Shown in pieces: positions 27,529 to 61,322 of a DNA stretch of 64,000 bases. Source of the stretch: Zygaena filipendulae (taxonomy: Eukaryota > Arthropoda > Insecta > Lepidoptera > Zygaenidae); NCBI GenBank assembly GCA_907165275.2, contig OU015673.1, positions 8,616,001 through 8,680,000 of the forward strand, written 5' to 3'. The translations under genes and the position numbers were made by a program. The notes under the pieces were generated by a model. The model had not been told where the DNA came from. It saw only the letters and a list, made by a program, of their open reading frames with translations, and did no database searches. Numbering within the stretch: the stretch's first letter is position 1; every line of letters begins with the position of its first letter.

Positions 27529-27617
27529 CCCCCCCGAATTGGGTCCCCGCCTTGTCGTGGCGGGGGGGCTCTAGTAACCGTGGACTCGTCACCCACGGTG
27601 AAGCTAAGAGGGACCCA
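27529..27617 (+). ncRNA. HDV-like self-cleaving ribozyme fold, non-coding-element type
   Basis: P1 is C7 (27529-27535) with G7 (27562-27568). P2 is TGGGTCCC (27540-27547) with GGGACCCA (27610-27617). P3 is GCC/GGC around loop TTGTCGT (27549-27561). P4 is CCGTGG/CCACGG (27578-27598). The joining strand into P2 contains GCTAAG, with candidate catalytic C at 27604. P3 abuts P1 directly, as in HDV. Comparable copies: 28408-28495 (E2), 29486-29575 (E3), 44023-44111 (E8), 51454-51542 (E11), 54948-55036 (E13), 59884-59972 (E15). Some have P2 as GGGTTCC/GGAACCC, a compensatory change. Unusual points: nucleotide 1 is C, and P1.1 is not clear. Confidence 0.68.
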
Positions 27618-28216
27618 GAGGCGGGCCGGAATGCCGGATGCGGCGCTGATCTGGGGGACGGCGCTGCGCCCGACATGAGGCACCGGACGGGGCCGTCTCA
27701 CCCACTTGCAGGCGGCAAGCACGGGGTCGAGGCGGCCCATGTAGGTGGCGCTGTCGTCCTCCGGGGCGGCGGCGCCACTGAGGCGGGCTGCGGTGGCTCG
27801 GGGAGCACCGCGGCTGAGGGTTAGAGGCCGTGGAGACGTTTTTTCCTCTGCGGCCTCGACGGGGCCGCCCCGGTGATTGGCGGCGTGGAGGGGCTGCGGG
27901 GGGAGGGGAGTGCTGGCGCGGAGCTAGTCGGCCCTCCTCACCCTCTGTGGCCGTCGTGGTGGGCGGCGGGGCCACTGACCCGACCCGTCGCAGGGGGCCT
28001 TGGGCGCCGGTCATGGGCCCGACCGGCGTCCTTTGCACAAGGTCCCCGAGAGGGAGGAGGACGGCGGTGCGTCGCGTGTTCCGGCGCATCGTCGTCATTC
28101 TGAGGGGCACTCGTGCCCCTCGAGGAGGAGCCCGGCAACGGGCTGGCGCCGTCGGGGCTGCGGAGCATGCGAAAGCGATTCCCGTGGCCCCGGCAACAGG
28201 CGCGGAGGAGGAACAC

Positions 28217-28341
28217 CCCAGGGTTTTTAGTGGGTAGCATTCCCGCCCTTCTCAGGGCGGGTTGCCCTTTTCAGGGCAGAGTCCCACATAACCATCGCCC
28301 CGGCCCGGGGGCGGTGGTATGCATAAAGCATTTTCCCTGGG
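28217..28341 (+). ncRNA. Cloverleaf-like 3' domain (type CCCAGGG)
   Basis: Closing stem CCCAGGG (28217-28223) with CCCTGGG (28335-28341). Second stem GTGGG (28230-28234) with CCCAC (28283-28287), enclosing two small hairpins (CCCGCCC/GGGCGGG and TGCCC/GGGCA). Third stem ACCATCGCCCC with GGGGCGGTGGT (28291-28318). Fourth stem ATGC/GCAT (28319-28331). Poly(A) follows within two bases. The same type ends E2, E3, E5, E6, E9, E10, E11, E13 and E15. In E6 the inner hairpin is CGCCC/GGGCG, a compensated change. Confidence 0.75.
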
Positions 28342-28407
28342 TCAAAAAAAAAAAAAAAAAAAAGGTTAGGTTAGGTTAGGTTAGGTTAGGTTAGGTTAGG
28401 TTAGGTT

Positions 28408-29219
28408 CCCCCCCGATTGGGTCCTCGCCTTGTCGTGGCGGGGGGGCTCTAGTAGCCGTGGACTCGTCACCCACGGTGAAGCTAAGAGGGACCCAGAGGC
28501 GGGCCGGAATGCCGGGTGCGGCGCTGATCTGGGGGACGGCGCTGCGCCCGACATGAGGCACCGGACGGGGCCGTCTCACCCACTTGCAGGCGGCAAGCAC
28601 GGGGTCGAGGCGGCCCATGTAGGTGGCGCTGTCGTCCTCCGGGGCGGCGGCGCCACTGAGGCGGGCTGCGGTGGCTCGGGGAGCACCGCGGCTGAGGGTT
28701 AGAGGCCGTGGAGACGTTTTTCCTCTGCGGCCTCGACGGGGCCGCCCCGGTGATTGGCGGCGTGGAGGGGCTGCGGGGGGAGGGGAGTGCTGGCGCGGAG
28801 CTAGTCGGCCCTCCTCACCCTCTGCGGCCGTCGTGGTGGGCGGCGGGGCCACTGACCCGACCCGTCGCAGGGGGCCTTGGGCGCCGGTCATGGGCCCGAC
28901 CGGCGTCCTTTGCACAAGGTCCCCGAGAGGGAGGAGGACGGCGGTGCGTCGCGTGTTCCGGCGCATCGTCGTCATTCTGAGGGGCACTCGTGCCCCTCGA
29001 GGAGGAGCCCGGCAACGGGCTGGCGCCGTCGGGGCTGCGGAGCATGCGAAAGCGATTCCCGTGGCCCCGGCAACAGGCGCGGAGGAGGAACACCCCAGGG
29101 TTTTTAGTGGGTAGCATTCCCGCCCTTCTCAGGGCGGGTTGCCCTTATCAGGGCAGAGTCCCACATAACCATCGCCCCGGCCCGGGGGCGGTGGTATGCA
29201 TAAAGCATTTTCCCTGGGT

Positions 29220-29265
<46 letters not shown>
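28408..29265 (+). mobile_element. E2: non-coding telomere-targeted retroelement
   Basis: 858 bp, nearly the same as E1, with 7-C/7-G P1 ribozyme fold at 28408-28495, the CCCAGGG-type 3' domain, and a 45-A tail. No element-encoded protein. Confidence 0.75.
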
Positions 29266-29267
<2 letters not shown>

Positions 29268-29279
29268 TTAGGTTAGGTT

Positions 29280-29503
29280 CCCCCCCGAATTGGGTTCCCC
29301 CCCCCGAATTGGGTTCCCCCCCCGAATTGGGTTCCCCCCCCCGAATTGGGTTCCCCCCCCCGAATTGGGTTCCCCCCCCCGAATTGGGTTCCCCCCCCCG
29401 AATTGGGTTCCCCCCCCGAATTGGGTTCCCCCCCCCCGAATTGGGTTCCCCCCCCCGAATTGGGTTCCCCCCCCCGAATTGGGTTCCCCCCCCCGAATTG
29501 GGT
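29280..29503 (+). repeat. 12 tandem copies of the element's own 5' terminus
   Basis: Unit: a run of 7-11 C plus GAATTGGGTT. The GGGTT of each unit resembles the AGGTT of the flanking telomere, which suggests slippage at the 5' junction during insertion. Confidence 0.9.
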
Positions 29504-30324
29504 TCCCGCCTTGTCGTGGCGGGGGGGCTTAGTAGCCGTGGACTGTCCACCCACGGTGAAGCCAAGAGGAACCCAGAGGCGGGCCAGAATGCCGGCGAGT
29601 GCGGCGCCGTTGATTTTATCCGGCGCCGCGCCCGGCATGAGGCACCGGGAGGGGGCCATCTCACCCACTTGCAGGCGGCAAGCATGTGGTCGAGGCGGCC
29701 CATGTAGGTGGCGCTGTCGTCCTCCGGGGCGGCGGCGCGACTGAGGCGGGCTGCGGTGGCTCGGGGAGCACCGCGGCTGAGGGTTAGAGGCCGTGGAGAT
29801 GTATTTCCTCCGCGGCCTCGACGGGGCCGCCCCGGTGATTGGCGGCGTGGAGGGGCCGCGGGGGGAGGGGAGTGCTGGCGCGGAGCTAGTCGGCCCTCCT
29901 CACCCCCTGTGGCCGTTGTGGTGGGCGGCGGGGCCACGGACCTGACCCGTCGCAGGGGGCCTTGGGCGCCGGTCATGGGCCCGACCGGCGTCCTTTGCAC
30001 AAGGTCCCCGAGAAGGAGGAGGACGGCGGTGCGTCGCGTGTTCCGGCGCATCCTCGTCATTCTGAGGGGCACTCGTGCCCCTCGAGGAGGAGCCCGGTGA
30101 CGGGCTGGCGCCGCCGGGGCTGCGGAGCATGCGAAAGCGATTCCCGCGGCCCCGGCAACAGGCGCGGAGGAGGAACACCCCAGGGTTTTTAGTGGGTAGC
30201 ATTCCCGCCCTTCTCAGGGCGGGTTGCCCTTTTCAGGGCAGAGTCCCACATAACCATCGCCCCGGCCCGGGGGCGGTGGTATGCATAAAGCATTTTCCCT
30301 GGGTCAAAAAAAAAAAAAAAAAAA
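29280..30324 (+). mobile_element. E3: non-coding element with 12-fold iterated 5' end
   Basis: Same family as E1/E2, but the first 18 or so bases (C7-11 then GAATTGGGTT) are repeated 12 times (29280-29503) before the ribozyme continues. The body and 3' domain are normal, with a 19-A tail. P2 here is TGGGTTCC/GGAACCCA and the joining strand has GCCAAG. Confidence 0.75.
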
Positions 30325-30343
30325 GGTTAGGTTAGGTTAGGTT

Positions 30344-30433
30344 CCCCCTCAATCGGGTCCGCGCCTTGTCGTGGCGAGGGGGCTTAGTAGCGGCTGGATG
30401 CATCTTTCCCAGCCGTGAAGCTAAGCGGACCCG
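30344..30433 (+). ncRNA. HDV-like self-cleaving ribozyme fold, ORF1-only type
   Basis: 90 nt. P1 is CCCCCTC (30344-30350) with GAGGGGG (30376-30382). P2 is CGGGTCCGC (30354-30362) with GCGGACCCG (30425-30433), 9 bp. P3 is GCC/GGC around TTGTCGT (30363-30375), stacked directly between P2 and P1 strands. P4 is GGCTGG/CCAGCC (30392-30414). The joining strand ends GCTAA, with candidate catalytic C at 30421. Topology and size match HDV. Same sequence at 33582-33671 (E5), 48203-48292 (E10) and 56510-56599 (E14). Confidence 0.72.
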
Positions 30434-30654
30434 CTAGCATATCGTAATCCCGCTCTGAGTGTCGTGGTCATGTCTCGCGGCTCAGAGTGGGACCGAGGGT
30501 TCACCGTAAAACGTGGACCACGAGGAAGAAAACCTCTATAAAAAATTACCCCGGATCCCCCGCTTGTGGCGGTCGCCGGGGGGTTCGCCGGGGACTGTGG
30601 CCCGGATACGAGGCCGTCACGGGGGGCATACCTCGACAATTTAAATAGCAAACC

Positions 30655-33246
30655 ATGGATAAGCGCGCTTGTGAAAAAAATCCCCACGTGGGTACCGGCC
30701 CCGAAAGGGCCGGCCAGTCCCACCCCGGACAAGCTCCGGGCCGCCCCTCGTATGTGGGGGGGGCAGCAACGCGTAGACGGGAAGGTGTAGTTTTAAGTGG
30801 GGGTGAGGGGTGGCCACCTCCAGATCCAAGGCCACCCAAATACCAACAATTCTTGGCATGGAAGGACATGATGCGTGTTAAGGAGTGGGAGGCGAATCTC
30901 GCTGTCATGAGCGAGTCGCAAATAAAAGAGAAGGTGCGTCAGGAGGGAGAGGTCTTCGTGAGGACCCTCACCAAGGAACTGGACGACATGGTGTTCGGGG
31001 TAATCGAGGTGGCGAACGCCACCCCCCGGCAAAAGGCACTGTATCATCATTCTACGGATGACATCGAGAAGTACGTGCCCAAAGAAATGCGCTACAGGCT
31101 TGAGCTGCTGCTGGCTAGGCGCCAAGAGCTTAGAGCCGAGGCTTGCACCAGTAAGCAGAGGGTCGCGCAGTCTTCCACCGCGGCCCAAGAAAAGAAGGTA
31201 GAAGCCCACCCGGCATTGAACATTGAGGGCGGGGTTTCCTCGCCTCAAGATGGAGTGGATCCTGTGAACCCAAAGAAGGTTATACAGGCATCTGGATCAT
31301 GCGCCACCCAATGTGTTGTTCCTTCCCTAAAATCTCCAGTAGTTGTTTTGGAGAGGATGGACGTGCAGACGGCGTCTGGTTCGGACGACGTTACGTCATC
31401 AGCCTGCTCGTCCCGCGACAGCAGTGTATCACGGAAGCGACAGCGGTGTGAGTCTCAGCCTCACGCCCGGGCAGCCAAAAGAGGCCGCAAGTTGGAAACG
31501 GCAGGGCGCAGTATAGAGGAGAGAGTCGCCAGGGCCGGTAAAGGGTCAGGCTCAGGGGTCGGAGATATAGCGGCCAATGAAGAGTCAGCCAACGTCCTTC
31601 GAGACAAAATCTTTGAGGACACGGAGGCTATCTGCCGCGTCGCCAGCACATCGGGCAACCTTAAGGGGACATTTATCCGAGACCTTAAGGAGGCAGCGGC
31701 GCGGATAGAAGACAGAGCCAAAGTCCTAGCGGCACACTCCGTGTCCGAGGAAACGGCGAAACTGGCGGCTGAAAACGCCCGTCTTCGTGCGGAGGTCGAC
31801 GTTCTTCGAAAGGACTTCGCCGCCCTCCGTGCGGAGATTGAGACGGAGCGGGCCAGGGTGCGTGCCGCTCCGTCCCTACCGGAAGTGACTGCGGAGCGGC
31901 GGGAGCAACCTCTCTCAGAGGAGCTCTTGCGTACCATCGCCCATATGGTGGACGCAAGAGTAGATGGGAGGCTGATACCCGACCGCCCACGCCCGCCTCT
32001 CCAACACGAGAGGCGGATATCAGAAAGGACGCTACCGGCCACCTCGACTCACGAGGCAGTGCCGGTCACCGAATCAGGAAGGGAAAAGGTGCGCAGAAGG
32101 AGGAAGGCCACCAAGGCAACCGCACAAGCCCCCAGGGAGGATGCCCCCCGTCAACTGCCCCCGGCACCGGCGAACATGGACGCTGGTTACTCGGAGGTGG
32201 TTAAACGGGGGAAAGGGAAGAAAAAAGGCAAGGCTGCCCTGACCTCGGCGCCTGTTGCGCCGGCGAAGAAGTCTTCGCAGGGGCAGTCGGCGCCGCGAGC
32301 GGCGGCAGCCAAGTCAAAAAAAGGAGGAAAGGTGCGGCCAAAAGCGCCGGTGCCTAGCAAGCTCCGTACCCCTCGATCAGCGGCTGTGGTGATACAACTG
32401 CAGCCAGAAGCTGAGCGAACAGGGCGGAGCTACCGAGATGTTCTGACCGAGGCCAAGTCCAGGATTAAACTGGCTGACCTCGGAATAACAGATATGAAGC
32501 TCAGGATTGCCGTGACCGGAGCGCGCATCCTGGAGGTGTCAGGAGCGGAAAGCAGCGATAAGGCAGACGCCCTCGCTGCTGCCATGAGAGGAGTTTTCCC
32601 CGCTGGGGATGTACGGGTCACAAGGCCAGAAAGGCGCGTGGAGCTGCGCATCTCCGGCCTGGATGAATCCGTCACCACCGGGGAAATAGCGGCCAAAGTC
32701 GCCCAGCAAGGCGGCTGTCTGGAGGGGTCCGTATCCGTCGGAGAAATCCGGCATGCCCCCTCCAGGACTGGCACCGCCTGGGTTCGTTGCCCGGTCGCGG
32801 CGGCCAAGGCACTGGCGCTGAAAGGGCGCCTATTGGTGGGGTGGGTGGCAGCGAAAGTCACCTTGTTGCCGCCCCGACCTTTGCGGTGCTTCCGCTGCCT
32901 CCATGCTGGCCATGTGGGGCGGAAATGCACCGCCGAGATCGATAGAGGCGGACTGTGCTACCGTTGCGGCCTTCCCGGCCACGTTGCGGCGGCATGCAGC
33001 AGCCAGCCTCGGTGCGTCTTGTGCGCCGAAGCTGGCAAACCGGCGGGGCATCGATTGGGGTCGCAGAGTTGCGGCGCCCCCAAGCGAATCCCGAGAAGGA
33101 CACCAAAAGCGGCCGAAGTGTCTCCGGCCGCCGCCGGTGCTGCCCAGCCCACAGTGGCCGGGCACGAGTCACCCACGACGGTGGCACAGGTGGGGTGTCC
33201 TCGCCCCAGTGGCCCTCCTGTAGAGGCCGCTATGGACGCGAGCTGA
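30655..33246 (+). CDS. ORF1 protein (Gag-like) of E4
   Basis: 863 residues from an ATG about 220 bp after the ribozyme. The N-terminal half is charged with probable coiled coil (RLRAEVDVLRKDFAALRAEI), and a Lys/Ala/Pro-rich linker follows. A conserved domain (RSAAVVIQLQPEAERTGRSY onward) precedes three zinc knuckles near residues 745-805: CFRCLHAGHVGRKC, CYRCGLPGHVAAAC and CVLCAEAGKPAGH plus a distal Cys. This knuckle set is typical of R1-clade ORF1 proteins, which bind element RNA and, in SART, bring it to telomeres. No stop or frameshift. Confidence 0.85.
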   Translation: MDKRACEKNPHVGTGPERAGQSHPGQAPGRPSYVGGAATRRREGVVLSGGEGWPPPDPRPPKYQQFLAWKDMMRVKEWEANLAVMSESQIKEKVRQEGEVFVRTLTKELDDMVFGVIEVANATPRQKALYHHSTDDIEKYVPKEMRYRLELLLARRQELRAEACTSKQRVAQSSTAAQEKKVEAHPALNIEGGVSSPQDGVDPVNPKKVIQASGSCATQCVVPSLKSPVVVLERMDVQTASGSDDVTSSACSSRDSSVSRKRQRCESQPHARAAKRGRKLETAGRSIEERVARAGKGSGSGVGDIAANEESANVLRDKIFEDTEAICRVASTSGNLKGTFIRDLKEAAARIEDRAKVLAAHSVSEETAKLAAENARLRAEVDVLRKDFAALRAEIETERARVRAAPSLPEVTAERREQPLSEELLRTIAHMVDARVDGRLIPDRPRPPLQHERRISERTLPATSTHEAVPVTESGREKVRRRRKATKATAQAPREDAPRQLPPAPANMDAGYSEVVKRGKGKKKGKAALTSAPVAPAKKSSQGQSAPRAAAAKSKKGGKVRPKAPVPSKLRTPRSAAVVIQLQPEAERTGRSYRDVLTEAKSRIKLADLGITDMKLRIAVTGARILEVSGAESSDKADALAAAMRGVFPAGDVRVTRPERRVELRISGLDESVTTGEIAAKVAQQGGCLEGSVSVGEIRHAPSRTGTAWVRCPVAAAKALALKGRLLVGWVAAKVTLLPPRPLRCFRCLHAGHVGRKCTAEIDRGGLCYRCGLPGHVAAACSSQPRCVLCAEAGKPAGHRLGSQSCGAPKRIPRRTPKAAEVSPAAAGAAQPTVAGHESPTTVAQVGCPRPSGPPVEAAMDAS

Positions 33247-33456
33247 CACCACTCCACCACCTTCGTTGCTTCTGGGGGCGTTCCGGGGGGACGGGCGTCC
33301 CTGCTATAGAAGCACGAGGAAGAAAGGCGCGTTTCGGACGCTCCGGCGCACCTTTACCCGAGTCGGTCGCCTCCAGGGAGGCGACGTCGCGGCGGGGGAA
33401 CGGATATGCTATAGCGGTTACCGTTCCTTCGCCGACGCGCGACTGAGAAGGAGTGC

Positions 33457-33545
33457 CGTGGAGTTTTAGCCGGTCGGAGCCCGGCATAACCACCCGCCGT
33501 CCCCACGACGCGGTGGTACGCGATGTCCATATGCGTTTCTCCACG
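33457..33545 (+). ncRNA. Cloverleaf-like 3' domain (type CGTGGAG)
   Basis: Closing stem CGTGGAG (33457-33463) with CTCCACG (33539-33545). Second stem GCCGG (33469-33473) with CCGGC (33481-33485). Third stem begins ACCACC and ends GGTGGT. Fourth stem ACGC/GCGT. Poly(A) begins two bases later. Every stem differs in sequence from the CCCAGGG type yet stays paired. Same type in E8, E12 and E14. Confidence 0.75.
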
Positions 33546-33581
33546 TAAAAAAAAAAAAAAAAAAAAAGGTTAGGTTAGGTT

Positions 33582-36500
33582 CCCCCTCAATCGGGTCCGC
33601 GCCTTGTCGTGGCGAGGGGGCTTAGTAGCGGCTGGATGCATTTTTCCCAGCCGTGAAGCTAAGCGGACCCGCTAGCATATCGTAATCCTGCTCTGAGTGT
33701 CGTGGTCATGTCTCGCGGCTCGGAGTGGGACCGAGGGTTCACCGTCAAAAGTGGACCGCGAGGAAGAAAACCTCTATAAAAAATTACCCCGGATCCCCCG
33801 CTTGTGGCGGTCGCCGGGGGGTTCGCCGGGGACTGTGGCCCGGATACGAGGCCGTCACGGGGGGCATATCCCGAAACCACATAGCAACAACAAAGATGAA
33901 AGCGCAAAAGGACAATAACAGAATACCCCAGGAGGGTACCGGCCTCGAAAGGGCTGGAGAACCCCTCCCTGGGCCCTCGGGCTCAGGCAGCTCCTCGTAT
34001 CTGGGGGGGGCACCTTTGCGTTCCGTCTTTAATGACGAAGAAGGAGTTAGAAGAAGAGTAAAGCGGGTGAAACACCGCCCGCTCATTGTAGATCCCCAAC
34101 TCATTAAGAGCTGGAAGGGCTGGCCCGAGGACCTCACGACCCTCACAGAGCAGGAGATACACGACCAGGTCCGTCGGGAGTGTTCATCTCTTGTTAAGGA
34201 GTTCATTGAGGAACGGGCAGCCTTCCGCGATTCGGGTGATCCTTGCGACAGTCGTGGGCCAATCTGGGAGCTCGTGTGGACCCTCTCAGAGGAAGAGCTC
34301 CAAGAAGAGGTCAGACGCGACATGTCGTATAGGATCACATATTTCATAGACAAGAGGAAGCAGCAGCTAATAACTGCCACCCCCGCGGCGACTGCCGCTC
34401 CGCCGTCTGGTTCGGGCGTGGGGAAAATTGCCGCCCCCTCTTTGAAATCACCTGTTGTGGTTTTAGAGAGGATGGAGGTATCTCCAGCGTCGGTCTCGGG
34501 CGGCCGTGCGTCAGTCGCCTGCTCGTCCCGTGACAGCAGCGGGACAAGGAAACGACTGCGAGAGGGTATGGAGGAGGACGATCCGCTCTCCGACAGCTCC
34601 GCCGGATCCCAGTCGGGAGGCGACGGACCTAAGAGGGGGCGCAAGAGCGCTAGGGCGAAGTCGCGCAACGTAGAGGAGCGCGTCGCCAGAGCCGGAAAAG
34701 GCTCGGGCTCGGGGGTTGGGGCTGCCTCGCTCAATGAGGCATCTTGCGACCTTAGAGACCGTATTTTTGAGGACACGGAGGTCATCTGCCGTGTCGCCGT
34801 GACGGCGGGACACCTGAAGGGCACAGATATCCGGGCCCTGAAGGAAGCGGCGGCACGGATAGATGACAGGGTCAAGGCCCTCGCTGAACGCTCCGTCACT
34901 GAGGAGACAGCAAGGCTGGCGTCGGAAAACGCTCGCCTGCGCGTGGAGGTTGACAGACTACGCAAGGAATTCGCCGCCCTCCGCGCGGAGATGATCGGAG
35001 CTCGAAGTGCTCCCACGCCACCCTCAGGTAGGCAAGAACAGGAGGCTCGGGAGCAGCCTCTCTCTCAGGAGGTGCTGCTGGCCACGATCCGACACATGGT
35101 CGAGGCCGCAGTTGAGGGGAGACTGCTTCCGGAGCGACGACGCCCACCCCTCCAACATGAGGGACGGTCGTCGCAACAAGAGGCTGCAGCTTCAGCTGCC
35201 GGCAATACTGCGCCGGCACCTGTGAGCCAGCCTAACAAGGGACCAAAGAAGGGATCTAAGAAGAGGGTAAAGGAACCCTCCCAACCGGTCCCAGAGAAGG
35301 ATGCCCCCCGTTCACTCCCACCAGCTCCGGCGAATATGGACGCTGGCTACTCGGAGGTAGTGAAACGGGGGAAGAAAAAGAAGAAGGGAAAGGCTGCCCC
35401 GACATCGGCGCCTGGCGCACCGGCGAAGAAGTCTCCGCCGGGACAATCGGCGCCGGGGTCGGCGACAACCAAGTCAAAGAAAGGGAAGGCGGCTAGGCCC
35501 AAAGCGCCAGGGCCGAAAAGACTCCGCCTCCCTCGCTCGGCGGCAGTAGTCATCCAGCTGCAGCCGGAAGCCGAGCGGGGGGGTCGCAGCTACCGCGACG
35601 TGCTGACCGAGGCCGCGTCCAAAATAAAACTGACCGACCTCGGCATCACTGATATGAAGTTTAGGTGCGCCGTAACCGGAGCACGCATCTTGGAGGTGCC
35701 AGGGGCGGACAGCGGCGAGAAAGCAGACGCCCTCGCCGCTGCTATGAGAGGAATCTTCCCCGCTGAAGATGTGCGGGTCACCAGGCCGGAGAAACGCGCA
35801 GAGCTGCGCATCTCTGGTCTGGATGACTCTGTTACCAGCGGGGAAGTAGCAGCCAAGGTTGCCCAGCAGGGTGACTGCCCGGAGGGGTCCGTATCAGTCG
35901 GAGAAATCCGGCATGCCTCCTCCGGAATCGGCACCGCCTGGGTGCGCTGTCCGGTCGCGGCGGCTAAGGCGCTGGCGCTTAAAGGGCGTCTCCTGGTGGG
36001 GTGGGTGGCAGCCAAAGTCACATTGCTGCCGCCCCGACCTCTGCGGTGCTTCCGCTGTCTCCACGCGGGACATGTGGGGATCAAGTGCACCGCGGAGGTC
36101 GATCGAGGTGGCCTATGCTACCGCTGTGGCCAGCCTGGCCACGTTGCGGCAGCGTGCAGCAGCCAGCCTCGGTGCGTCTTGTGCGCCGAGGCTGGCAAAC
36201 CAGCGGGGCACCGTTTGGGGTCGCAGAACTGCAGCGCCCCCAAACGTGGCCAAAGAAGATCGCCCAAAGCGGCCGGAGCGACTCCGGCCGCCGCCGGTGA
36301 AGCCCAGCCCGCAGCGGCCGGGCAAGAATCCGCCATGGCGGTGACATAGACCACCATGACGAGGTCCTCCGGGTGACAGAGTGGGGTACCTCTGCCGCCC
36401 GTCGGAAGGGACCTCGAGACTATGTGGCGCGTTAGGTGTTCCGGCGCGCCACTCCTATTATTATTTTTAGCAGAAGAAGGAGGGGGGACTTAGGTCCCCC

Positions 36501-36710
36501 GGGATTAAGTCCCAGAAAAGGAGCCGGACGCTCGGCTATGCGCTGTCGGGGTCGCGGAGCATGCGAGAGCGAATCCCGTGACCCCGACGCTAGGCGCTGA
36601 GAAGGAACACCCCAGGGTTTTTAGTGGGTAGATCGCCCTTGTCAGGGCGGAGTCCCACATAACCACCGCCTCTTACCCTATGGCGGTGGTATGCATAAAG
36701 CATTTTCCCT

Positions 36711-36742: not shown

Positions 36743-36744
<2 letters not shown>

Positions 36745-36796
36745 TTAGGTTAGGTTAGGTTAGGTTAGGTTAGGTTAGGTTAGGTTAGGTTAGGTT

Positions 36797-37421: not shown

Positions 37422-37525
37422 GGTTAGGTTAGGTTAGGTTAGGTTAGGTTAGGTTAGGTTAGGTTAGGTTAGGTTAGGTTAGGTTAGGTTAGGTTAGGTT
37501 AGGTTAGGTTAGGTTAGGTTAGGTT

Positions 37526-43904: not shown

Positions 43905-43935
<31 letters not shown>

Positions 43936-48103: not shown

Positions 48104-48202
48104 GGTTAGGTTAGGTTAGGTTAGGTTAGGTTAGGTTAGGTTAGGTTAGGTTAGGTTAGGTTAGGTTAGGTTAGGTTAGGTTAGGTTAGGTTAGGTTAGG
48201 TT

Positions 48203-51200: not shown

Positions 51201-51329
51201 GACGCTAGGCGCCGAGAAGGAACACCCCAGGGTTTTTAGTGGGTAGATCGCCCTTGTCAGGGCGGAGTCCCACATAACCACCGCCTCTTACCCTATGGCG
51301 GTGGTATGCATAAAGCATTTTCCCTGGGT

Positions 51330-51389: not shown

Positions 51390-51391
<2 letters not shown>

Positions 51392-51453
51392 TTAGGTTAG
51401 GTTAGGTTAGGTTAGGTTAGGTTAGGTTAGGTTAGGTTAGGTTAGGTTAGGTT

Positions 51454-52956
51454 CCCCCCCGAATTGGGTCCCCGCCTTGCCGTGGCGGGGGGGCTCTAGT
51501 AGCCGTGGAATCGTCACCCACGGTGAAGCTAAGAGGGACCCAGAGGCGGGCCGGAATGCCGGTGAGTGCGGCGCTGAGAAGGGCCAGCGCTGCGCCCGAC
51601 ATGAGGCGCCGAGACGGGTAGGCCGTGCCTCTCGGGCGCTTTGGCGTGGGGGCGCGGCTGAGGCGGGTCGCGGCGTAAAAACCGTGGCCGGGAGAGGGGA
51701 CGGTAGGTTGCGCCTCTCGGGCGCTTTGGCGTGGGGGTGCAACTGAGGTGGGCCGCGGCGTAAAAACCGTGGCCGGGAGAAGGTCCGGAATGTTCGGGTG
51801 CGGCGCCGTCGATTTCATCCGACGCCGCGCCCGGCATGCGGCACCGGGACGGGTAGGCCGTGCCTCTCGGGCGCTTTGGCGTGGGGGCGCGGCTGAGGCG
51901 GGTCGCGGCGTAAAAACCGTGGCCGGGAGAAGGGCCGGAATGTTCGGGTGCGGCGCCGTCGATTTCATCCGACGCCGCGCCCGGCATGCGGCACGGGACG
52001 GGTAGGCTGTGCCTCTCGGGCGCTTTGGCGTGGGGGCGCGGCTGAGGCGGGTCGCGGCGTAAAAAACCGTGGCCGGGAGAAGGTCCGGAATGTTCGGGTG
52101 CGGCGCCGTCGATTTCATCCGACGCCGCGCCCGGCATGCGGCACCGGGACGGGTAGGCCGTGCCTCTCGGGCGCTCTGGCGTGGGGGCGCGGCTGAGGCG
52201 GGTCGCGGCGTAAAAACCGTGGCCGGGAGAAGGGCCGGAATGTTCGGGTGCGGCGCCGTCGATTTCATCCGACGCCGCGCCCGGCATGAGGCACCGGGAG
52301 GGGGCCGTCTCACCCACTTGCAGGCGGCAAGCACGTGGTCGAGGCGGCCCATGTAGGTGGCGCTGTCGTCCTCCGGGGCGGCGGCGCCACTGAGGCGGGC
52401 CGCGGTGGCTCGGGGAGCACCGCGGCTGAGTGTTAGAGGCCGTGGAGATGCTTTTCCTCTGCGGCCTCGACGGTGCCGCCCCGGTGATTGGCGGCGTGGA
52501 GGGGCTGTGGGGGGAGGGGAGTGCTGGCGCGGAGCTAGTCGGCCCTCCTCACCCCCCTGCGGCCGTCGTGGTGGGCGGCGGGGCCATCTACCTGACCCGT
52601 CGCAGGGGGCCTTGGGCGCCGGTCATGGGCCCGACCGGCGTCCTTTGCACAAGGTCCCCGAGAGAGGGAGGAGGGCGGCGGTGCGTCGCGTGTTCCGGCG
52701 CATCGTCGTCATTCTGAGGGGCACTCGTGCCCCTCGAGGAGGAGCCCGGTGACGGGCTGGCGCCGTCGGGGCTGCGGAGCATGCGAAAGCGATTCCCGCG
52801 GCCCCGGCAACAGGCGCGGAGGAGGAACACCCCAGGGTTTTTAGTGGGTAGCATTCCCGCCCTTCTCAGGGCGGGTTGCCCTTTTCAGGGCAGAGTCCCA
52901 CATAACCATCGCCCCGGCCCGGGGGCGGTGGTATGCATAAAGCATTTTCCCTGGGT

Positions 52957-53043
<87 letters not shown>
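51454..53043 (+). mobile_element. E11: non-coding element with 150-bp array
   Basis: 1,590 bp: ribozyme fold with a one-base loop variant (TTGCCGT), tandem array, shared body, CCCAGGG-type 3' domain, and the longest pure A tail in the window (86 A). Confidence 0.75.
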
Positions 53044-53045
<2 letters not shown>

Positions 53046-53107
53046 TTAGGTTAGGTTAGGTTAGGTTAGGTTAGGTTAGGTTAGGTTAGGTTAGGTTAGG
53101 TTAGGTT

Positions 53108-54928
53108 CACTTGAGGAGGGAAAACTCCCGCCTCTGCCACTTGAGGAGGGAAAACTCCCGCCTCTGCGAAGAATTGGCGGAACTCCGCAAGGAATTCGCT
53201 GCCTTCCGCGCGGAGGCGGAGTTAGAGCGAGCTCGCGCCGCTGTAGCGCCCCCGCCGCCGCCGCTGCCACCGTTACCGGAAAGGATTGAGGAGGATATAC
53301 CCCGGGAGCAATCTCTCTCCCAGGAGGAAATTATGCGCACTGTGCGCAACATAGTCGACGCGCGACTGGAAGGGAGTTTGCTCCCGGACAGACCTAGGCC
53401 GCCTCTCCAGCATGAGAGACGGTCTCTTGACGAGACGCCCCCGGCTTTGACAGCCCCGCCAGCGGTTGCCGGCGGCGCCACCACAGAGAAGAAGAAAGGG
53501 AAACGCGGGCGACGGAAACCCTCTCGCAAGAAGGAACTGCAAGGGCCTAACAAGAACTCGGCCCCCGCCGCTCCCGCCACCCACGAAGCCGCGGCCCCAG
53601 GGTCCTACACGGAGGCCGTGAAAAGAGGGAGACAGAAGAGAGACAAGAAAGGAGCTTCCTCTCTCTCAGCGCCCAACGCCAATGCGACGGGCAGGAAGAA
53701 GGCGCCGAAGAAACCGGCGACAACACCTGAGACGACGACGGGACGCAGAAAGCCTGCGCCGTCCAAATTACGTCCGCCCCGCTCAGCAGCCGTGGTTCTG
53801 CAGCTGCAGCCCGCGGCAGAGGAGAAGGGCCTTACGTACAAGGATGTACTAACCGAGGCCACGTCGAAAATCAAATTGGCTGACCTCGGCATCACGGCAC
53901 TCAACTTCAGGCTCGCAGCAACTGGAGCGCGCATCCTGGAGGTGCCAGGGACGACCAGCGGCGAGAAGGCAGACGCCCTCGCCACTGCACTGCGAGGACT
54001 TCTCCCCGCTGAAGACGTGCGGGTCTCCAGGCCGGTGAAGTGCGCCGAACTGCGCATTTCCGGACTGGATGACTCCGTCACCAGCGGGGATGTAGCCGCC
54101 AAAGTGGCTGAGACGGGAGGATGCCTGGTGGGGGCCGTCACTGTCGGTGAGATCCGGCAAGCCCCCTCCGGCACTGGTACCGCCTGGGTGCGCTGCCCAG
54201 TAGCGGTCGCGAAGACGCTCGCACAAAGAGGGCGATTATTGGTGGGCTGGACGGCTGCACGAGTGACGCTGCTGCCGCCGCGAACGATGCGGTGCTTCCG
54301 CTGCCTAGAGGGCGGACATGTGGGGCGGAACTGCACCGCAGAAGTCGACAGGAGCCGGTGTTGCTACCGGTGCGGCGTGCCTGGGCACATAGCCGCCACG
54401 TGTTTCGGCGAGGTCCGGTGCATTATATGCACCGAGAACGGAAAGCCGGCGAGGCACCGACTGGGAGCTTGGAGTTGCTCAGCCCCCAAGAAGCCCGCGA
54501 GAAGGCCAACGACGAAGACGACCGGTTCTGCTCCGGTCGCCGTCAGTGCTGCCCAGCCAGGGCAGGGAGCGGTCATGGAGGTGACTTAGCGAAGTGTACC
54601 TTCATGCCTCGGGGGCGTCCCGCGGGGGCGGGGCGTCTTCACATAGAGGTACGAGGAGGGAGGGCGCGTTCTGTCATTCCGGCGCGTCCTCATACATGAG
54701 ATGGTCGCCATAACATCTGGCGACGTCGCTGGCGGGACGTCGCTGGCGGGGTTGCGGTAGTTTACCATCGTGTTCCCGTGACCTCGCCGACCTTCGCGAC
54801 AGGGAAGGAATACCGTGGAGTTTTAGCCGGTCGGAGCCCGGCATAACCACCGCGTCGCCCCCGTGATGCGGTGGTACGCGATGTCCATAAGCGTTTCTCC
54901 ACGTAAAAAAAAAAAAAAAAAAAAAAAA
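53108..54928 (+). mobile_element. E12: 5'-truncated ORF1-only element with duplicated 5' edge
   Basis: It starts within the coiled-coil part of an E14-type ORF1. The first 30 bp, starting CACTTGAGGAGGGAAAACTC, are present twice in tandem (53108-53137 and 53138-53167). The rest of ORF1, the CGTGGAG-type 3' domain and a 24-A tail are normal. Confidence 0.78.
53111..54589 (+). pseudogene. N-terminally truncated ORF1 (E12)
   Basis: Open frame of about 490 residues, closest to E14. It retains the coiled-coil end, basic linker, conserved domain (RSAAVVLQLQPAAEEKGLTY) and all three zinc knuckles, but no native start codon. Confidence 0.75.
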
Positions 54929-54947
54929 GGTTAGGTTAGGTTAGGTT

Positions 54948-56415
54948 CCCCCCCGAATTGGGTTCCCGCCTTGTCGTGGCGGGGGGGCTTAGTAGCCGTG
55001 GGTACTGTCCACCCACGGTGAAGCCAAGAGGAACCCTGAGGCGGGCCGGAATGCCGGTGAGTGCGGCGCTGAGAAGGGCCAGCGCTGCGCCCGACATGAG
55101 GCACCGAGACGGGTAGGTTGCGCCTCTCGGGCGCTTTGGCGTGGGGGCGCGACTGAGGCGGGTCGCGGCGTAAAAACCGTGGCCGGGAGAGGGGACGGTA
55201 GGTTGCGCCTCTCGGGCGCTTTGGCGTGGGGGTGCAACTGAGGTGGGCCGCGGCGTAAAAAACCGTGGCCGGGAGAGGGGAGCGTAGGCCGTGCCTCTCG
55301 GGCGCTTTGGCGTGGGGGCGCGGCTGAGGCGGGTCGCGGCGTAAAAACCGTGGCCGGGAGAAGGGCCGGAATGTTCGGGTGCGGCGCCGTCGATTTCATC
55401 CGACGCCGCGCCCGGCATGCGGCACCGGGACGGGTAGGCCGTGCCTCTCGGGCGCTTTGGCGTGGGGGCGCGGCTGAGGCGGGTCGCGGCGTAAAAACCG
55501 TGGCCGGGAGAAGGGCCGGAATGCTCGGGTGCGGCGCCGTCGATTTCATCCGACGCCGCGCCCGGCATGCGGCACCGGGACGGGTAGGCCGTGCCTCTCG
55601 GGCGCTTTGGCGTGGGGGCGCGGCTGAGGCGGGTCGCGGCGTAAAAACCGTGGCCGGGAGAAGGGCCGGAATGTTCGGGTGCGGCGCCGTCGATTTCATC
55701 CGACGCCGCGCCCGGCATGAGGCACCGGGAGGGGGCCGTCTCACCCACTTGCAGGCAGCAAGCACGTGGTCGAGGCGGCCCATGTAGGTGGCGCTGTCGT
55801 CCTCCGGGGCGGCGGCGCCACTGAGGCGGGCCGCGGTGGCTCGGGGAGCACCGCGGCTGAGTGTTAGAGGCCGTGGAGATGCTTTTCCTCTGCGGCCTCG
55901 ACGGGGCCGCCCCGGTGATTGGCGGCGTGGAGGGGCTGCGGGGGGAGGGGAGTGCTGGCGCGGAGCTAGTCGGCCCTCCTCACCCCCTGCGGCCGTCGTG
56001 GTGGGCGGCGGGGCCATCTACCTGACCCGTCGCAGGGGGCCTTGGGCGCCGGTCATGGGCCCGACCGGCGTCCTTTGCACAAGGTCCCCGAGAGAGGGAG
56101 GAGGGCGGCGGTGCGTCGCGTGTTCCGGCGCATCGTCGTCATTCTGAGGGGCACTCGTGCCCCTCGAGGAGGAGCCCGGTGACGGGCTGGCGCCGTCGGG
56201 GCTGCGGAGCATGCGAAAGCGATTCCCGCGGCCCCGGCAACAGGCGCGGAGGAGGAACACCCCAGGGTTTTTAGTGGGTAGCATTCCCGCCCTTCTCAGG
56301 GCGGGTTGCCCTTTTCAGGGCAGAGTCCCACATAACCATCGCCCCGGCCCGGGGGCGGTGGTATGCATAAAGCATTTTCCCTGGGTCAAAAAAAAAAAAA
56401 AAAAAAAAAAAAAAA
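54948..56415 (+). mobile_element. E13: non-coding element with 150-bp array
   Basis: 1,468 bp, full-length ribozyme fold (54948-55036), array, CCCAGGG-type 3' domain and 28-A tail. It differs from E15 at only a few positions outside the poly(A). Confidence 0.77.
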
Positions 56416-56509
56416 GGTTAGGTTAGGTTAGGTTAGGTTAGGTTAGGTTAGGTTAGGTTAGGTTAGGTTAGGTTAGGTTAGGTTAGGTTAGGTTAGGTTA
56501 GGTTAGGTT

Positions 56510-59500
56510 CCCCCTCAATCGGGTCCGCGCCTTGTCGTGGCGAGGGGGCTTAGTAGCGGCTGGATGCATCTTTCCCAGCCGTGAAGCTAAGCGGACCCGC
56601 TAGCATATCGTAATCCCGCTCTGAGTGTCGTGGTCATGTCTCGCGGCTCAGAGTGGGACCGAGGGTTCACCGTAAAACGTGGACCGCGAGGAAGAAAACC
56701 TCTATAAAAAATTACCCCGGATCCCCCGCTTGTGGCGGTCGCCGGGGGGTTCGCCGGGTTCTGTGGCCCGGATACGAGGCCGTCACGGGGGGCATACCCC
56801 GACAACAATCGCAACAAGCACAATGGACAAAACGCACAAGGCAAAAACTCCCCAGGTGGGTACCAGCCTCGAAAGGGTTGGAGAGTCCCACCCCGGCAAA
56901 GGTCCGGGCAGCCCCTCGTATCTGGGGGGGGCACCTGTGCGTTCGGACGTTGTGGACGTCGTGAAGAAGAAGGCACCTAAGTGCACATGGGGTGAGGGGG
57001 GGCCGCCTCCGGATCCAAGGCCCCCCAACCAACGACGACTTGTGGAATGGCCACGGCTAATGGAAGAGAGAGAATGGGAGCGCGACCTAACGTCGCTGAC
57101 AAAAACACAGGTCAGGGACCTTGTACAGAAGGACTATGAGTCCCTGCGTGACACACTCATCGCGGAGCACCAGGGCATCGTGGAGGACAATTCGAAGAGC
57201 CCAAACAACCTCAAGGCACGGGAAGAGTATCTGATGTCCCTTAGCATCACCGACTTAAAGGAGGTGCTAAGGGATGACATGATGTACCGACTTGAGGTGC
57301 TTCTTGCGGAAAGAGAAAAGAGAAGGGTCGCCCTAACAAAAGGGGCCACAGGAGGGAAACCATCAACCTCCTCACTAAGATCGCCAGTAGTGGTTTTAGA
57401 GAGGATGGATGCGCATGAGTTTGAGGACTCGGACGACGTCATGTCGATTGGTTCTGCTACGGGGAGTATAGGGGGAGGCGGGAAAAGGAAGCGCCATGAC
57501 TTCGAGCTGGAGGATTCCGATGATATATCCTCCTCCGAAGACTTCGCTGGCACGCCCCTCCCCAGCAGAAAGAAACCTGCAGCAGGTGGGAAACGCGGAC
57601 GGGGACGGCCGCCTACGACCGGCGAATACGTCGGCCTGGCCAAGGCGAAGGCCGACCTTGTCGCCATGGAAAGAGCAGAGCTGGAGCTCCAAGCGGAGAA
57701 GGACGTGCTGGCCCTAAGTCAGAAGGCCCGCGTCCTAAGACCAATTGGAAGAGCCCAAAGAGAGGAACTCGGGCTGAAGCTCAGTGACCGGGTCGTGGAA
57801 ACCACGGACGACCTGCGAGAGCACATCATCGAGGATGCCGACCTCATATCCTCCATCGCCGTAAAATCCGGAAATCTTAAGGGCACCTTCGTGCGAGCCC
57901 TGAAGGAGGCGGCGATGCGGATTGAGGATCGTGCCAGGGAATTGGCTGGAAACTCTGTTTCCACAGAGACGGAGAAGCTGTCGGCGGAGGTGAGGCACTT
58001 GAGGAGGGAAAACTCCCGCCTCTGCGAAGAACTGGCGGAACTCCGCAAGGAATTCGCGGCCTTCCGCGCGGAGGCGGAGTTAGAGCGAGCTCGCGCCGCT
58101 ATAGCGCCCCCACCGCCGCCAGCACCACTGGAAAGGATCGAGGAGGAAGTACCCCGGGAGCAACCTCTCTCCCAGGACGAAATTATGCGCACTGTGCGCA
58201 ACATAGTGGACGCGCGACTGGAAGGGAGTTTGTTTCCGGACAGACCAAGACCGCCTCTCCAGCATGAGAGACGGTCCCTTGACGAGACGCCCCCGGCTTT
58301 GACAGCCCCGCCAGCGGTTGCCGGCGGCGCTACCACAAAGACGACGAAAGGGAAACGCGGGCGACGGAAACCCTCTCGCAAGAAGGAACTGCAAGGGCCT
58401 AACAAGAACTCGGCCCCCGCCGCTCCCGCGACCCAAGAAGCCGCGGCCCCAGGGTCCTACTCGGAGGCCGTGAAAAGAGGGAGACAGAAGAGAGGCAAGA
58501 AAGGAGCTTCCTCTCTCTCAGCGCCCAACGCCAATGCGACGGGCAGGAAGAAGGCGCCGAAGAAACCGGCGACAACACCTGAGACGACGACGGGACGCAG
58601 AAAGCCTGCGCCGTCCAAACTACGTCCGCCCCGCTCAGCAGCCGTGGTTCTGCAGCTGCAGCCCGCGGCAGAGGAGAAGGGCCTTACGTACAAGGACGTA
58701 CTTACCGAGGCCACGTCGAAGATCAAACTGGCTGACCTCGGCATCACGGCACTCAACTTCAGGCTCGCAGCAACTGGAGCGCGCATCCTGGAGGTGCCAG
58801 GGACGACCAGCGGCGAGAAGGCAGACGCCCTCGCCACTGCACTGCGAGGACTTCTCCCCGCTGAAGACGTGCGGGTCTCCAGGCCGGTGAAGTGCGCCGA
58901 ACTGCGCATTTCCGGACTGGATGACTCCGTCACCAGCGGGGATATAGCCGCCAAGGTGGCTGAGACGGGAGGATGCCCGGTGGGGGCCGTCACTGTCGGG
59001 GAGATCCGGCAAGCCCCCTCCGGCACTGGTACCGCCTGGGTGCGCTGCCCAGTAGCGGTCGCGAAGACGCTCGCGCAAAGAGGGCGATTATTGGTGGGCT
59101 GGACGGCTGCACGAGTGACGCTGCTGCCGCCACGAACGATGCGGTGCTTCCGCTGCCTAGAAGGCGGACATGTGGGGCGGAACTGCACCGCAGAAGTCGA
59201 CAGGAGCCGGTGTTGCTACCGGTGCGGCGTGCCTGGGCACATAGCCGCCACGTGTTTCGGCGAGGTCCGGTGCATTATATGCACCGAGAACGGCAAGCCG
59301 GCGAGGCACCGACTGGGAGCTTGGAGTTGCTCAGCCCCCAAGAAGCCCGCGAGAAGGCCACCGACGAAGACGACCGGTTCTGCTCCGGTCGCCGTCAGTG
59401 CCGCCCAGCCAGGGCAGGGAGCGGTCATGGAGGTGACTTAGCGAAGTGTACCTTCGTGCCTCGGGGGCGTCCCGCGGGGGCGGGGCGTCCTCACATAGAG

Positions 59501-59740
59501 GCCCGAGGAGGGAGGGCGCGTTCTGTCATTCCGGCGCGTCCTCATACATGAGACGGTCGCCATAACATCTGGCGACGTCGCTGGCGGGGTTGCGGTAGTT
59601 TACTATCGTGTTCCCGTGACCCCGCCGCCCCTCGCGACAGGGAAGGAATACCGTGGAGTTTTAGCCGGTCGGAGCCCGGCATAACCACCGTGTCGCCCCC
59701 GCGATGCGGTGGTACGCGATGTCCATAAGCGTTTCTCCAC

Positions 59741-59789
<49 letters not shown>
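56510..59789 (+). mobile_element. E14: ORF1-only SART-related element
   Basis: 3,280 bp: ribozyme fold (56510-56599), leader, complete ORF1, CGTGGAG-type 3' domain, 47-A tail. No ORF2. Source-type sequence for E8 and E12. Confidence 0.83.
56823..59441 (+). CDS. ORF1 protein (Gag-like) of E14
   Basis: 872 residues from MDKTHKAKTPQVG; an in-frame ATG at 56679 in the leader exists but is not conserved in position. The N-terminus resembles E4 and E5 (GESHPGKGPGSPSYLGGAP). An AT-hook-like GKRGRGRPPTTGEYVGLAKA also occurs in E7 ORF1, so E14 is closer to the autonomous element in this part. Coiled coil (VRHLRRENSRLCEELAELRK), basic linker, conserved domain, and zinc knuckles CFRCLEGGHVGRNC, CYRCGVPGHIAATC and CIICTENGKPARH. 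Intact. Confidence 0.85.
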   Translation: MDKTHKAKTPQVGTSLERVGESHPGKGPGSPSYLGGAPVRSDVVDVVKKKAPKCTWGEGGPPPDPRPPNQRRLVEWPRLMEEREWERDLTSLTKTQVRDLVQKDYESLRDTLIAEHQGIVEDNSKSPNNLKAREEYLMSLSITDLKEVLRDDMMYRLEVLLAEREKRRVALTKGATGGKPSTSSLRSPVVVLERMDAHEFEDSDDVMSIGSATGSIGGGGKRKRHDFELEDSDDISSSEDFAGTPLPSRKKPAAGGKRGRGRPPTTGEYVGLAKAKADLVAMERAELELQAEKDVLALSQKARVLRPIGRAQREELGLKLSDRVVETTDDLREHIIEDADLISSIAVKSGNLKGTFVRALKEAAMRIEDRARELAGNSVSTETEKLSAEVRHLRRENSRLCEELAELRKEFAAFRAEAELERARAAIAPPPPPAPLERIEEEVPREQPLSQDEIMRTVRNIVDARLEGSLFPDRPRPPLQHERRSLDETPPALTAPPAVAGGATTKTTKGKRGRRKPSRKKELQGPNKNSAPAAPATQEAAAPGSYSEAVKRGRQKRGKKGASSLSAPNANATGRKKAPKKPATTPETTTGRRKPAPSKLRPPRSAAVVLQLQPAAEEKGLTYKDVLTEATSKIKLADLGITALNFRLAATGARILEVPGTTSGEKADALATALRGLLPAEDVRVSRPVKCAELRISGLDDSVTSGDIAAKVAETGGCPVGAVTVGEIRQAPSGTGTAWVRCPVAVAKTLAQRGRLLVGWTAARVTLLPPRTMRCFRCLEGGHVGRNCTAEVDRSRCCYRCGVPGHIAATCFGEVRCIICTENGKPARHRLGAWSCSAPKKPARRPPTKTTGSAPVAVSAAQPGQGAVMEVT

Positions 59790-59791
<2 letters not shown>

Positions 59792-59883
59792 TTAGGTTAG
59801 GTTAGGTTAGGTTAGGTTAGGTTAGGTTAGGTTAGGTTAGGTTAGGTTAGGTTAGGTTAGGTTAGGTTAGGTTAGGTTAGGTT

Positions 59884-61322
59884 CCCCCCCGAATTGGGTT
59901 CCCGCCTTGTCGTGGCGGGGGGGCTTAGTAGCCGTGGGTACTGTCCACCCACGGTGAAGCCAAGAGGAACCCTGAGGCGGGCCGGAATGCCGGTGAGTGC
60001 GGCGCTGAGAAGGGCCAGCGCTGCGCCCGACATGAGGCACCGAGACGGGTAGGTTGCGCCTCTCGGGCGCTTTGGCGTGGGGGCGCGACTGAGGCGGGTC
60101 GCGGCGTAAAAACCGTGGCCGGGAGAGGGGACGGTAGGTTGCGCCTCTCGGGCGCTTTGGCGTGGGGGTGCAACTGAGGTGGGCCGCGGCGTAAAAAACC
60201 GTGGCCGGGAGAGGGGAGGGTAGGCCGTGCCTCTCGGGCGCTTTGGCGTGGGGGCGCGGCTGAGGCGGGTCGCGGCGTAAAAACCGTGGCCGGGAGAAGG
60301 GCCGGAATGTTCGGGTGCGGCGCCGTCGATTTCATCCGACGCCGCGCCCGGCATGCGGCACCGGGACGGGTAGGCCGTGCCTCTCGGGCGCTTTGGCGTG
60401 GGGGCGCGGCTGAGGCGGGTCGCGGCGTAAAAACCGTGGCCGGGAGAAGGGCCGGAATGCTCGGGTGCGGCGCCGTCGATTTCATCCGACGCCGCGCCCG
60501 GCATGCGGCACCGGGACGGGTAGGCCGTGCCTCTCGGGCGCTTTGGCGTGGGGGCGCGGCTGAGGCGGGTCGCGGCGTAAAAACCGTGGCCGGGAGAAGG
60601 GCCGGAATGTTCGGGTGCGGCGCCGTCGATTTCATCCGACGCCGCGCCCGGCATGAGGCACCGGGAGGGGGCCGTCTCACCCACTTGCAGGCAGCAAGCA
60701 CGTGGTCGAGGCGGCCCATGTAGGTGGCGCTGTCGTCCTCCGGGGCGGCGGCGCCACTGAGGCGGGCCGCGGTGGCTCGGGGAGCACCGCGGCTGAGTGT
60801 TAGAGGCCGTGGAGATGCTTTTCCTCTGCGGCCTCGACGGGGCCGCCCCGGTGATTGGCGGCGTGGAGGGGCTGCGGGGGGAGGGGAGTGCTGGCGCGGA
60901 GCTAGTCGGCCCTCCTCACCCCCTGCGGCCGTCGTGGTGGGCGGCGGGGCCACTTACCTGACCCGTCGCAGGGGGCCTTGGGCGCCGGTCATGGGCCCGA
61001 CCGGCGTCCTTTGCACAAGGTCCCCGAGAGAGGGAGGAGGGCGGCGGTGCGCCGCGTGTTCCGGCGCATCGTCGTCATTCTGAGGGGCACTCGTGCCCCT
61101 CGAGGAGGAGCCCGGAGACGGGCTGGCGCCGTCGGGGCTGCGGAGCATGCGAAAGCGATTCCCGCGGCCCCGGCAACAGGCGCGGAGGAGGAACACCCCA
61201 GGGTTTTTAGTGGGTAGCATTCCCGCCCTTCTCAGGGCGGGTTGCCCTTTTCAGGGCAGAGTCCCACATAACCATCGCCCCGGCCCGGGGGCGGTGGTAT
61301 GCATAAAGCATTTTCCCTGGGT

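Follow-up and report, generated by a model that had tools for sequence, protein, structure and literature searches.

Putative HDV-like ribozymes at the 5' ends of telomere-inserted SART-like elements of Zygaena filipendulae

The telomeric retroelements in a 64,000-nucleotide stretch of the Zygaena filipendulae genome (assembly GCA_907165275.2, contig OU015673.1, positions 8,616,001 to 8,680,000; hereafter the window, numbered from its first letter) very probably begin with self-cleaving ribozymes resembling that of hepatitis delta virus (HDV), which would free the element RNA from telomere transcripts. This reading is based on a shared structure, its covariation, its position at the junction with the telomeric repeat, its copy number in the genome, and mostly uniform junctions. 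We further infer cleavage itself, a read-through RNA resembling telomeric repeat-containing RNA (TERRA) as the substrate, and mobilisation of the non-autonomous copies in trans.

The elements form an array of 15 copies within (AGGTT)n, every one on the + strand and oriented like the G-rich telomere strand. Each ends in a poly(A) tract of 17 to 84 nt followed by AGGTT, and CCCCC directly follows TT at the 5' end of 12 of them. Insertion between TT and AGG of (TTAGG)n, with poly(A) joined to AGG, is that of SART-type elements, and so are the coding regions of the element at 37526-43931: open reading frame (ORF) 1 contains a zinc knuckle and ORF2 an endonuclease of the apurinic/apyrimidinic type (APE-like) and a reverse transcriptase. 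The solved structures that match are TRAS1 ORF2p (1wdu; 48.6 bits) for the endonuclease part, and R2 and LINE-1 for the reverse transcriptase part. On these sequences, the elements are best read as SART-type, TT/AGG-targeted elements plus their non-autonomous kin. Three of them (starting at about 36798, 47745 and 53108) lack the ribozyme motif and look 5'-truncated; the other 12 share it, in the types A, B and C listed here:

27529..61354, + strand: array of 15 elements in (AGGTT)n, single orientation, each with poly(A) and then AGGTT
37526..43931, + strand: autonomous SART-like element of 6406 bp with ORF1, ORF2 and poly(A), recognised by its ORFs and domain matches
30344..30433, + strand: putative type A ribozyme (fold, covariation, RF02682 match)
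33582..33671, + strand: putative type A ribozyme of an ORF1-only element (fold)
48203..48292, + strand: putative type A ribozyme of an ORF1-only element (fold)
56510..56599, + strand: putative type A ribozyme of an ORF1-only element (fold)
27529..27617, + strand: putative type B ribozyme of an element without an ORF of at least 150 aa (fold, RF02682 and RF00094 matches)
28408..28495, + strand: putative type B ribozyme of an element without an ORF of at least 150 aa (fold)
29280..29487, + strand: repeated 5'-terminal units (C-run plus GAATTGGGTTCC) before the next ribozyme
29488..29575, + strand: putative type B ribozyme of the element starting at 29280 (fold)
44023..44112, + strand: putative type B ribozyme of an ORF1-bearing element, outer P2 pair U.U (fold, RF02682 match)
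51454..51542, + strand: putative type B ribozyme with L3 variant UUGCCGU (fold, RF02682 match)
54948..55037, + strand: putative type B ribozyme, outer P2 pair U.U (fold)
59884..59973, + strand: putative type B ribozyme, outer P2 pair U.U (fold)
37526..37676, + strand: putative type C ribozyme of the autonomous element, with P2 CCCGG/CCGGG and a long P4 (fold)

The motif is a nested double pseudoknot of the stems P1, P2, P3 and P4, in which P3' abuts P1'. All 12 ends follow a common plan, namely a P1 of 7 bp, P3 GCC/GGC, the loop L3 UUGUCGU (UUGCCGU at 51454), and C-N-A-A before P2'; they represent three lineages, B having two subtypes, and are not independent. In the type A end at 30344, P1 is formed by 30344-30350/30376-30382, P2 by 30354-30362/30425-30433, P3 by 30363-30365/30373-30375, and P4 by 30390-30397/30409-30416, the last lying between AGUA (30386-30389) and GAA (30417-30419); J1/2 covers 30351-30353, L3 30366-30372, J1/4 30383-30385, and J4/2 30421-30424 (CUAA), with C30421 as the candidate catalytic base. 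In type C, J4/2 is CGAA, with C37668 as the candidate, and J1/2 contains a 9-bp hairpin inside 37533-37561 (z -3.5; equally good in one of 200 shuffles), whereas J1/2 of types A and B is bare and 3-4 nt long. The 9-bp P2 of type B requires one bulged A. Among ends parsed in the home genome (see below), AGUA lies opposite GAA at the base of P4 in 64 of 64 A and B ends, a feature that the parse demanded, no end being left unparsed, and J1/4 consists of C plus one to three pyrimidines. The AGUA/GAA arrangement resembles a bulged-G (loop E) motif. A first-pass annotation of the window, made from its letters alone, had proposed this fold at three 5' ends (27529-27617, 30344-30433 and 37526-37676). 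These can be folded as claimed, C30421 and C37668 each provide the C of C-N-A-A, and the L3 with a single U-to-C variant is correct. The fold is not limited to three ends, however, as 12 elements carry it, and in 11 of these, rather than in all, P1 begins with the first base that is not telomeric, the ribozyme at 29488 following the repeated units from 29280.

Covariation was assessed on stem rows segmented by hand to the structure, because MAFFT, applied to all 12 ends, put type C in the wrong place and displaced P1 and P2'; the one bulged A of type B was omitted and the lineages were few. Seven distinct stem rows of 26 pairs were obtained, in which 97.3% of the 182 pair cells form. Changes on both sides occurred in 11 of the 26 pairs (one in P1, five in P2 and five in P4), P3 being invariant. 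The compensation claimed for P1, P2 and P4 by the first-pass annotation is thus present, except that the outermost P2 pair is U.U at 44023, 54948 and 59884. None of 500 shuffles matched the observed cells paired, compensated pairs, compensated cells or covariation score (0.337 versus 0.138 in the shuffles). In slid registers, the paired cells dropped from 97% to 48-59%, the compensated pairs from 11 to 1-3, and the covariation score to at most 0.103. Between lineages, 80-86% of aligned bases agree in the ribozyme block, while identity over the 200 nt 3' of it is 0.72-0.75, versus 0.69-0.72 after shuffling.

A descriptor of HDV-like ribozymes (7-bp P1, 5-bp P2, 3-bp P3, L3 U..HCG, and C.AA), composed after reading the first-pass annotation, matched all 12 motif ends in the window; its only other match there was at 37789, also on the + strand, and the - strand had none. 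When 27529-61354 was shuffled 100 times and scanned on one strand, the mean was 0.34 anchors and the maximum three. Type B can, by this descriptor, also start 1-2 nt further 5', where UU forms G.U pairs. A general extension of P1 into the telomeric repeat was rejected, as no such start was given for type A or C. The P2 run adjoining C.AA was equalled, in 2000 shuffles of the downstream stretch, in none for the type A end at 30344 (9 bp), in 11 and 34 for the type B ends at 27529 (9 bp) and 44023 (7 bp), and in 41 or 67 for the type C end at 37526 (5 bp; gap 0 or at most 2). Support for P2 is therefore strong for A, fair for B and, because of this last figure, weak for C taken alone.

The exact core GCCTTGTCGTGGCGNGGGGG occurs 407 times in the 366-Mb home genome (56 contigs), the reversed control not at all, and viral contigs gave 0 exact matches. 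A survey covered 20 stretches, mostly telomeric arrays, from the first 100 core places listed, plus other loci; a bacterial contig (L001) and a masked locus (L042) were left out. Ninety-three right-hand ends of telomeric repeat with at least two units were considered. Excluded from these were four that lead into poly(T), being in opposite orientation, and two variant repeat units that precede a counted end. The remaining 87 5' ends comprised 70 ribozyme ends (24 A, 40 B and 6 C), eight of a further type D, and nine other or truncated ones. All 70 ends with the GCCTTGYCGTGGC core, which the survey parse required, had an exact 7-bp P1, the L3 pattern and C-N-A-A. No sampled end combined the core with a broken P1, and coreless ends appeared by eye to be type D, truncated or unrelated, not decayed ribozymes. 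With G-U allowed, P2 formed 9/9 pairs in 51 ends, 8/9 in 13, and 5/9 in the six of type C. L3 was UUGUCGU in 69 ends and UUGCCGU in one, and the joining strand before P2' was CUAA in 45, CCAA in 19 and CGAA in six, the three variants already named by the first-pass annotation. In HDV-like ribozymes, U and G of L3 form a required trans U-G pair, as stated in the accessible text of PMC3386971; both bases are present in the sequences of all 70 parsed ends. Taken together, the fold, the junction position, the compensation, the invariant L3 U/C/G and C-N-A-A support, at the level of sequence, the HDV-like assignment made earlier.

Autonomous elements with A-type ends also occur in the sampled arrays. 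One of these has an ORF2 with 54% identity to the type C ORF2, and the A and C elements have an identical 20-nt core. A protein search of the genome with ORF2 gave at least 44 matches (42 of 3060 candidates scored), and those listed fell into two groups, with 96-100% (one short piece 83%) and 53-56% identity. Two copies were seen outside telomere arrays (L043, about 940-1060 in reverse-complement coordinates, and L044, about 925-1050), their ribozyme starting 10-11 nt 3' of a short TTAGGTTAGGT stretch. The sole match of the junction pattern in genome contigs, on the Hyphomonas contig L001, was rejected, since by eye no such fold was present.

Concerning the junctions, 57 of the 70 ribozyme ends start exactly at TT/C1. 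The other 13 comprise two with one extra base, one with AGGTC, one with an unrelated 10-mer, and nine headed by bases resembling element starts. These nine prefixes are C-runs (three, ambiguous), CCCCCT, CCCCCTCAC, CCCCCCCGAAT, the 19-mer repeat at 29280, CCGTGGACCT and the D-like CCGTGTCTGGGT, and none contains a telomeric unit. The prefix at 29280 consists of 12 units of about 19 nt, counting the ribozyme's own, with C-runs of 7 to 10 and no telomeric unit between them, as though reverse transcription had restarted many times at an RNA 5' end. The simplest reading of the prefixes is that reverse transcriptase jumped between RNAs with 5' ends at +1; 5'-terminal fragments ahead of other copies may be traces of such template jumping. 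Prefixes without telomeric units argue for defined RNA 5' ends, whatever the mechanism that makes those ends. In the survey, 5' ends headed by 6-12 nt resembling element starts were seen in L012, L014, L016, L017, L024, L031, L035 and L041, and a truncated copy in L041 also starts with CCCCCT. In the window, the elements at 44023-47709 and 56510-59787 have bodies that are 97% identical and 5' ends of type B and type A, respectively; 5' modules appear to have been exchanged between element bodies.

Type D ends (CCGTGGACCTGCCCGG...) are carried by ORF1-bearing elements of the same arrays (L015 4133 and 7794 and L038 5145, in reverse-complement coordinates; L020 1485; L023 3257), and two of the eight lie behind a short prefix. 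An HDV-like ribozyme was rejected for type D, as by eye neither a U...CG L3 abutting P1' nor a conserved C-N-A-A was present. Of six distinct D sequences, five give a three-way junction on folding, with CCGUG/CACGG as its closing stem, and one folds otherwise, and Rfam gave 0 matches for the one copy tried (L023).

If the ends do self-cleave, RNA running from (UUAGG)n into an element would fold into P1-P2-P3-P4, and the C of the C-N-A-A strand would act as general acid, the chain being cut immediately 5' of C1. The product would be element RNA that lacks telomeric leader and carries a 5'-OH on C1. It could serve for translation, or target-primed reverse transcription could copy it into TT/AGG sites, and insertion of such a C1-starting RNA would regenerate the TT/C junction. 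Copies lacking ORF2 retain the putative ribozyme and would borrow the ORF2 of autonomous elements. Transcription outward from the subtelomere, assumed to lie left of 27 kb, would traverse one element after another, most of them headed by a ribozyme; given their orientation as the G-rich telomere strand, outward read-through could be cut at every element. That the telomere transcript is a polycistron cut at each element, the D end being a second 5'-processing RNA of another kind, is an unlikely extension; if true, telomere transcription itself would feed autonomous and parasitic elements alike. The array and its genomic relatives offer a well-supported, densely sampled case, with three co-resident lineages, ORF-less copies keeping the ribozyme, and hundreds of genomic cores. 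Cleavage, if shown, would link telomere transcription to retrotransposon RNA supply and provide a system for how a defined RNA 5' end yields uniform insertion junctions.

The first-pass annotation knew of no description of such ribozymes in this telomeric family, a claim that does not hold, as 'telomere-specific SART' is named among elements with HDV-like ribozymes in the accessible text of PMC11620745 (citing Ruminski 2011). Those elements are alike in target, orientation, ORFs and 5' untranslated region (UTR) ribozyme, the comparison being by description only. HDV-like ribozymes on telomeric SART elements are, as far as that text goes, already in print, and the present case is a new example. 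The Ruminski abstract of 2011 reportedly agrees on SART ribozymes. By title and abstract, with subscription papers mostly uncovered, no paper was found that analyses such ribozymes in non-autonomous telomeric elements; the non-autonomous kin and the stacked 5' ends may be additional to the reported SART ribozymes. R2 elements target 28S ribosomal DNA and use a restriction-like endonuclease, from which the present elements differ by their (TTAGG)n target, APE-like endonuclease and C at position 1. The R2 ribozyme is alike, in the sections available of PMC3774820 and PMC5035012, in its P1 of 6-7 bp, P2 of at least 5 bp, a 7-nt L3 that conserves C and G, and its catalytic C, and it cleaves at the 5' junction or upstream of it. 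The R2 L3 CCUCCUCGUGG (PMC5035012, in part) equals the L3 found here except for two bases at P1.1 positions (here UG). Large HDV-like ribozymes have a P1.2 hairpin in J1/2 (PMC4908430, in part), in the same place as the 9-bp hairpin of type C, and differ in this from types A and B. SART1Bm likewise inserts between TT and AGG and has its poly(A), on average 20 nt long, next to AGG, as given in the accessible part of PMC7265360; the word 'ribozyme' does not occur in that text.

Rfam searches with window ends pointed to two HDV-type families, HDV (RF00094) and the Faecalibacterium prausnitzii ribozyme (RF02682), which share the topology, the abutting P1 and P3, and CGUGG after the variable part of L3, and which have GCUAAG at J4/2 in common with the 51454 end in the alignment; they differ by G1, where C1-G37 is found here. 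On short stretches, RF02682 was the top match for the ends at 27529 (17.8 bits, E 0.14, 27529-27616/27617; gathering 44 bits), 51454 (17.2 bits, E 0.18), 44023 (17.1 bits, E 0.2) and 30344 (13.9 bits, E 1.3, start at 30344). RF00094 covered 27529-27617 end to end as third in the list (14.5 bits, E 3.3; gathering 50 bits). In total, an HDV-type model ranked first with the predicted 5' boundary in four of six Rfam searches of ribozyme stretches. The unrelated families abiF, asR3 and mir-1896 score in the same range, so that the HDV-model matches, not being significant, are only suggestive, their weight lying in rank and exact boundary. A covariance model built from A and B without the pseudoknot recovers its own 11 training ends.

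Several points weigh against HDV-like ribozymes at these ends. First, Rfam gave no match at the gathering score. All HDV-type matches lay below it (E 0.14 to 3.3), and none was obtained on 37510-37690 (type C) or on the longer stretch 44010-44130; the covariance-model check proposed in the first-pass annotation thus gave, for one A and three B ends, agreement in rank and boundary only. Similarly, the A and B covariance model placed the start of the C end wrongly and gave it 11.8 bits (E 0.57). Secondly, all 12 window ends have a G-paired C as nucleotide 1, while HDV-like ribozymes usually carry G1. Thirdly, P1.1, which has one or two pairs in HDV-like ribozymes, comprises at most one standard pair here, a real weak point on the sequence, because in all 70 parsed ends G at position 3 of L3 can pair with C, the first base after P1', while the neighbouring U faces U in 64 and C in six; the single pair is inverted relative to that of HDV. 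Both weaknesses had been flagged in the first-pass annotation. Fourthly, minimum-energy pseudoknot-free folds of one A, two B and the C end contained P1 in the proposed register in 0 of 4, and the count of further pair types was equalled by 34 of 500 shuffles. Fifthly, although P1 was exact in every parsed relative, P2 was not free of the breaks that would speak against the fold, with one uncompensated mismatch in two type A copies and an outer U.U pair in 11 B copies. Sixthly, type D ends are as sharp as ribozyme ends and show prefixes without the motif, and the prefixes could have arisen by DNA-level duplication. Lastly, cleavage at the element's own 5' end accompanies variable junctions in the R2 survey (PMC3774820, in the part available), unlike the mostly identical junctions found here.

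Some of these points fit an HDV-shaped structured 5' UTR serving packaging or translation, with cleavage lost or never present, which would accommodate C1, the weak P1.1 and the sub-threshold Rfam scores. It is quite unlikely, considering that L3 U/C/G and C-N-A-A stay constant in all 70 ends while stems and loops vary, although the parse demanded the core. Very improbable is an internal RNA polymerase II promoter starting at C1, the fold being incidental or DNA-only. In its favour, a downstream promoter element (DPE), which sits at a constant distance, is present in Bombyx SART1 and TRAS1 (PMC4748587, accessible text), and type D ends are sharp without the motif. However, a DPE at fixed spacing was not seen: depending on the end, the conserved L3 is found at +23, +24 or +44, and the sequence from +28 to +33 varies. 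A promoter also leaves the compensated pairs in P2 and P4 unexplained. Promoter and ribozyme may also coexist, as both overlap in L1Tc (PMC4748587, same text). Chance or shared ancestry alone, with few lineages aligned to fit, is next to impossible despite the three lineages, the hand segmentation with its omitted bulged A, the P2 of type C matched by 2-3% of shuffles and the equalled further pair types, since slid registers lose both pairing and compensation and the descriptor matched one place only beyond the motif ends.

Besides the HDV-like ends, which we retain as the favoured reading, the window contains further repeats. Tandem repeats of 85 bp and 150 bp lie shortly 3' of type B ribozymes at 44187-44959, 51697-52303, 55112-55734 and 60047-60670. 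Directly ahead of the telomeric array, an AAC array (526 copies) is followed by 30 copies of TTGGACGAGTTAGGT (25477-27508). Beyond the array (62157-64000), 800 bp of TTAGG are followed by poly(T), which probably marks the 3' terminus of an oppositely oriented TRAS-type element. Finally, 10984-14922 on the - strand holds the open frame of a long terminal repeat retrotransposon, with reverse transcriptase, RNase H and integrase domains above the cut-off and a protease below it.

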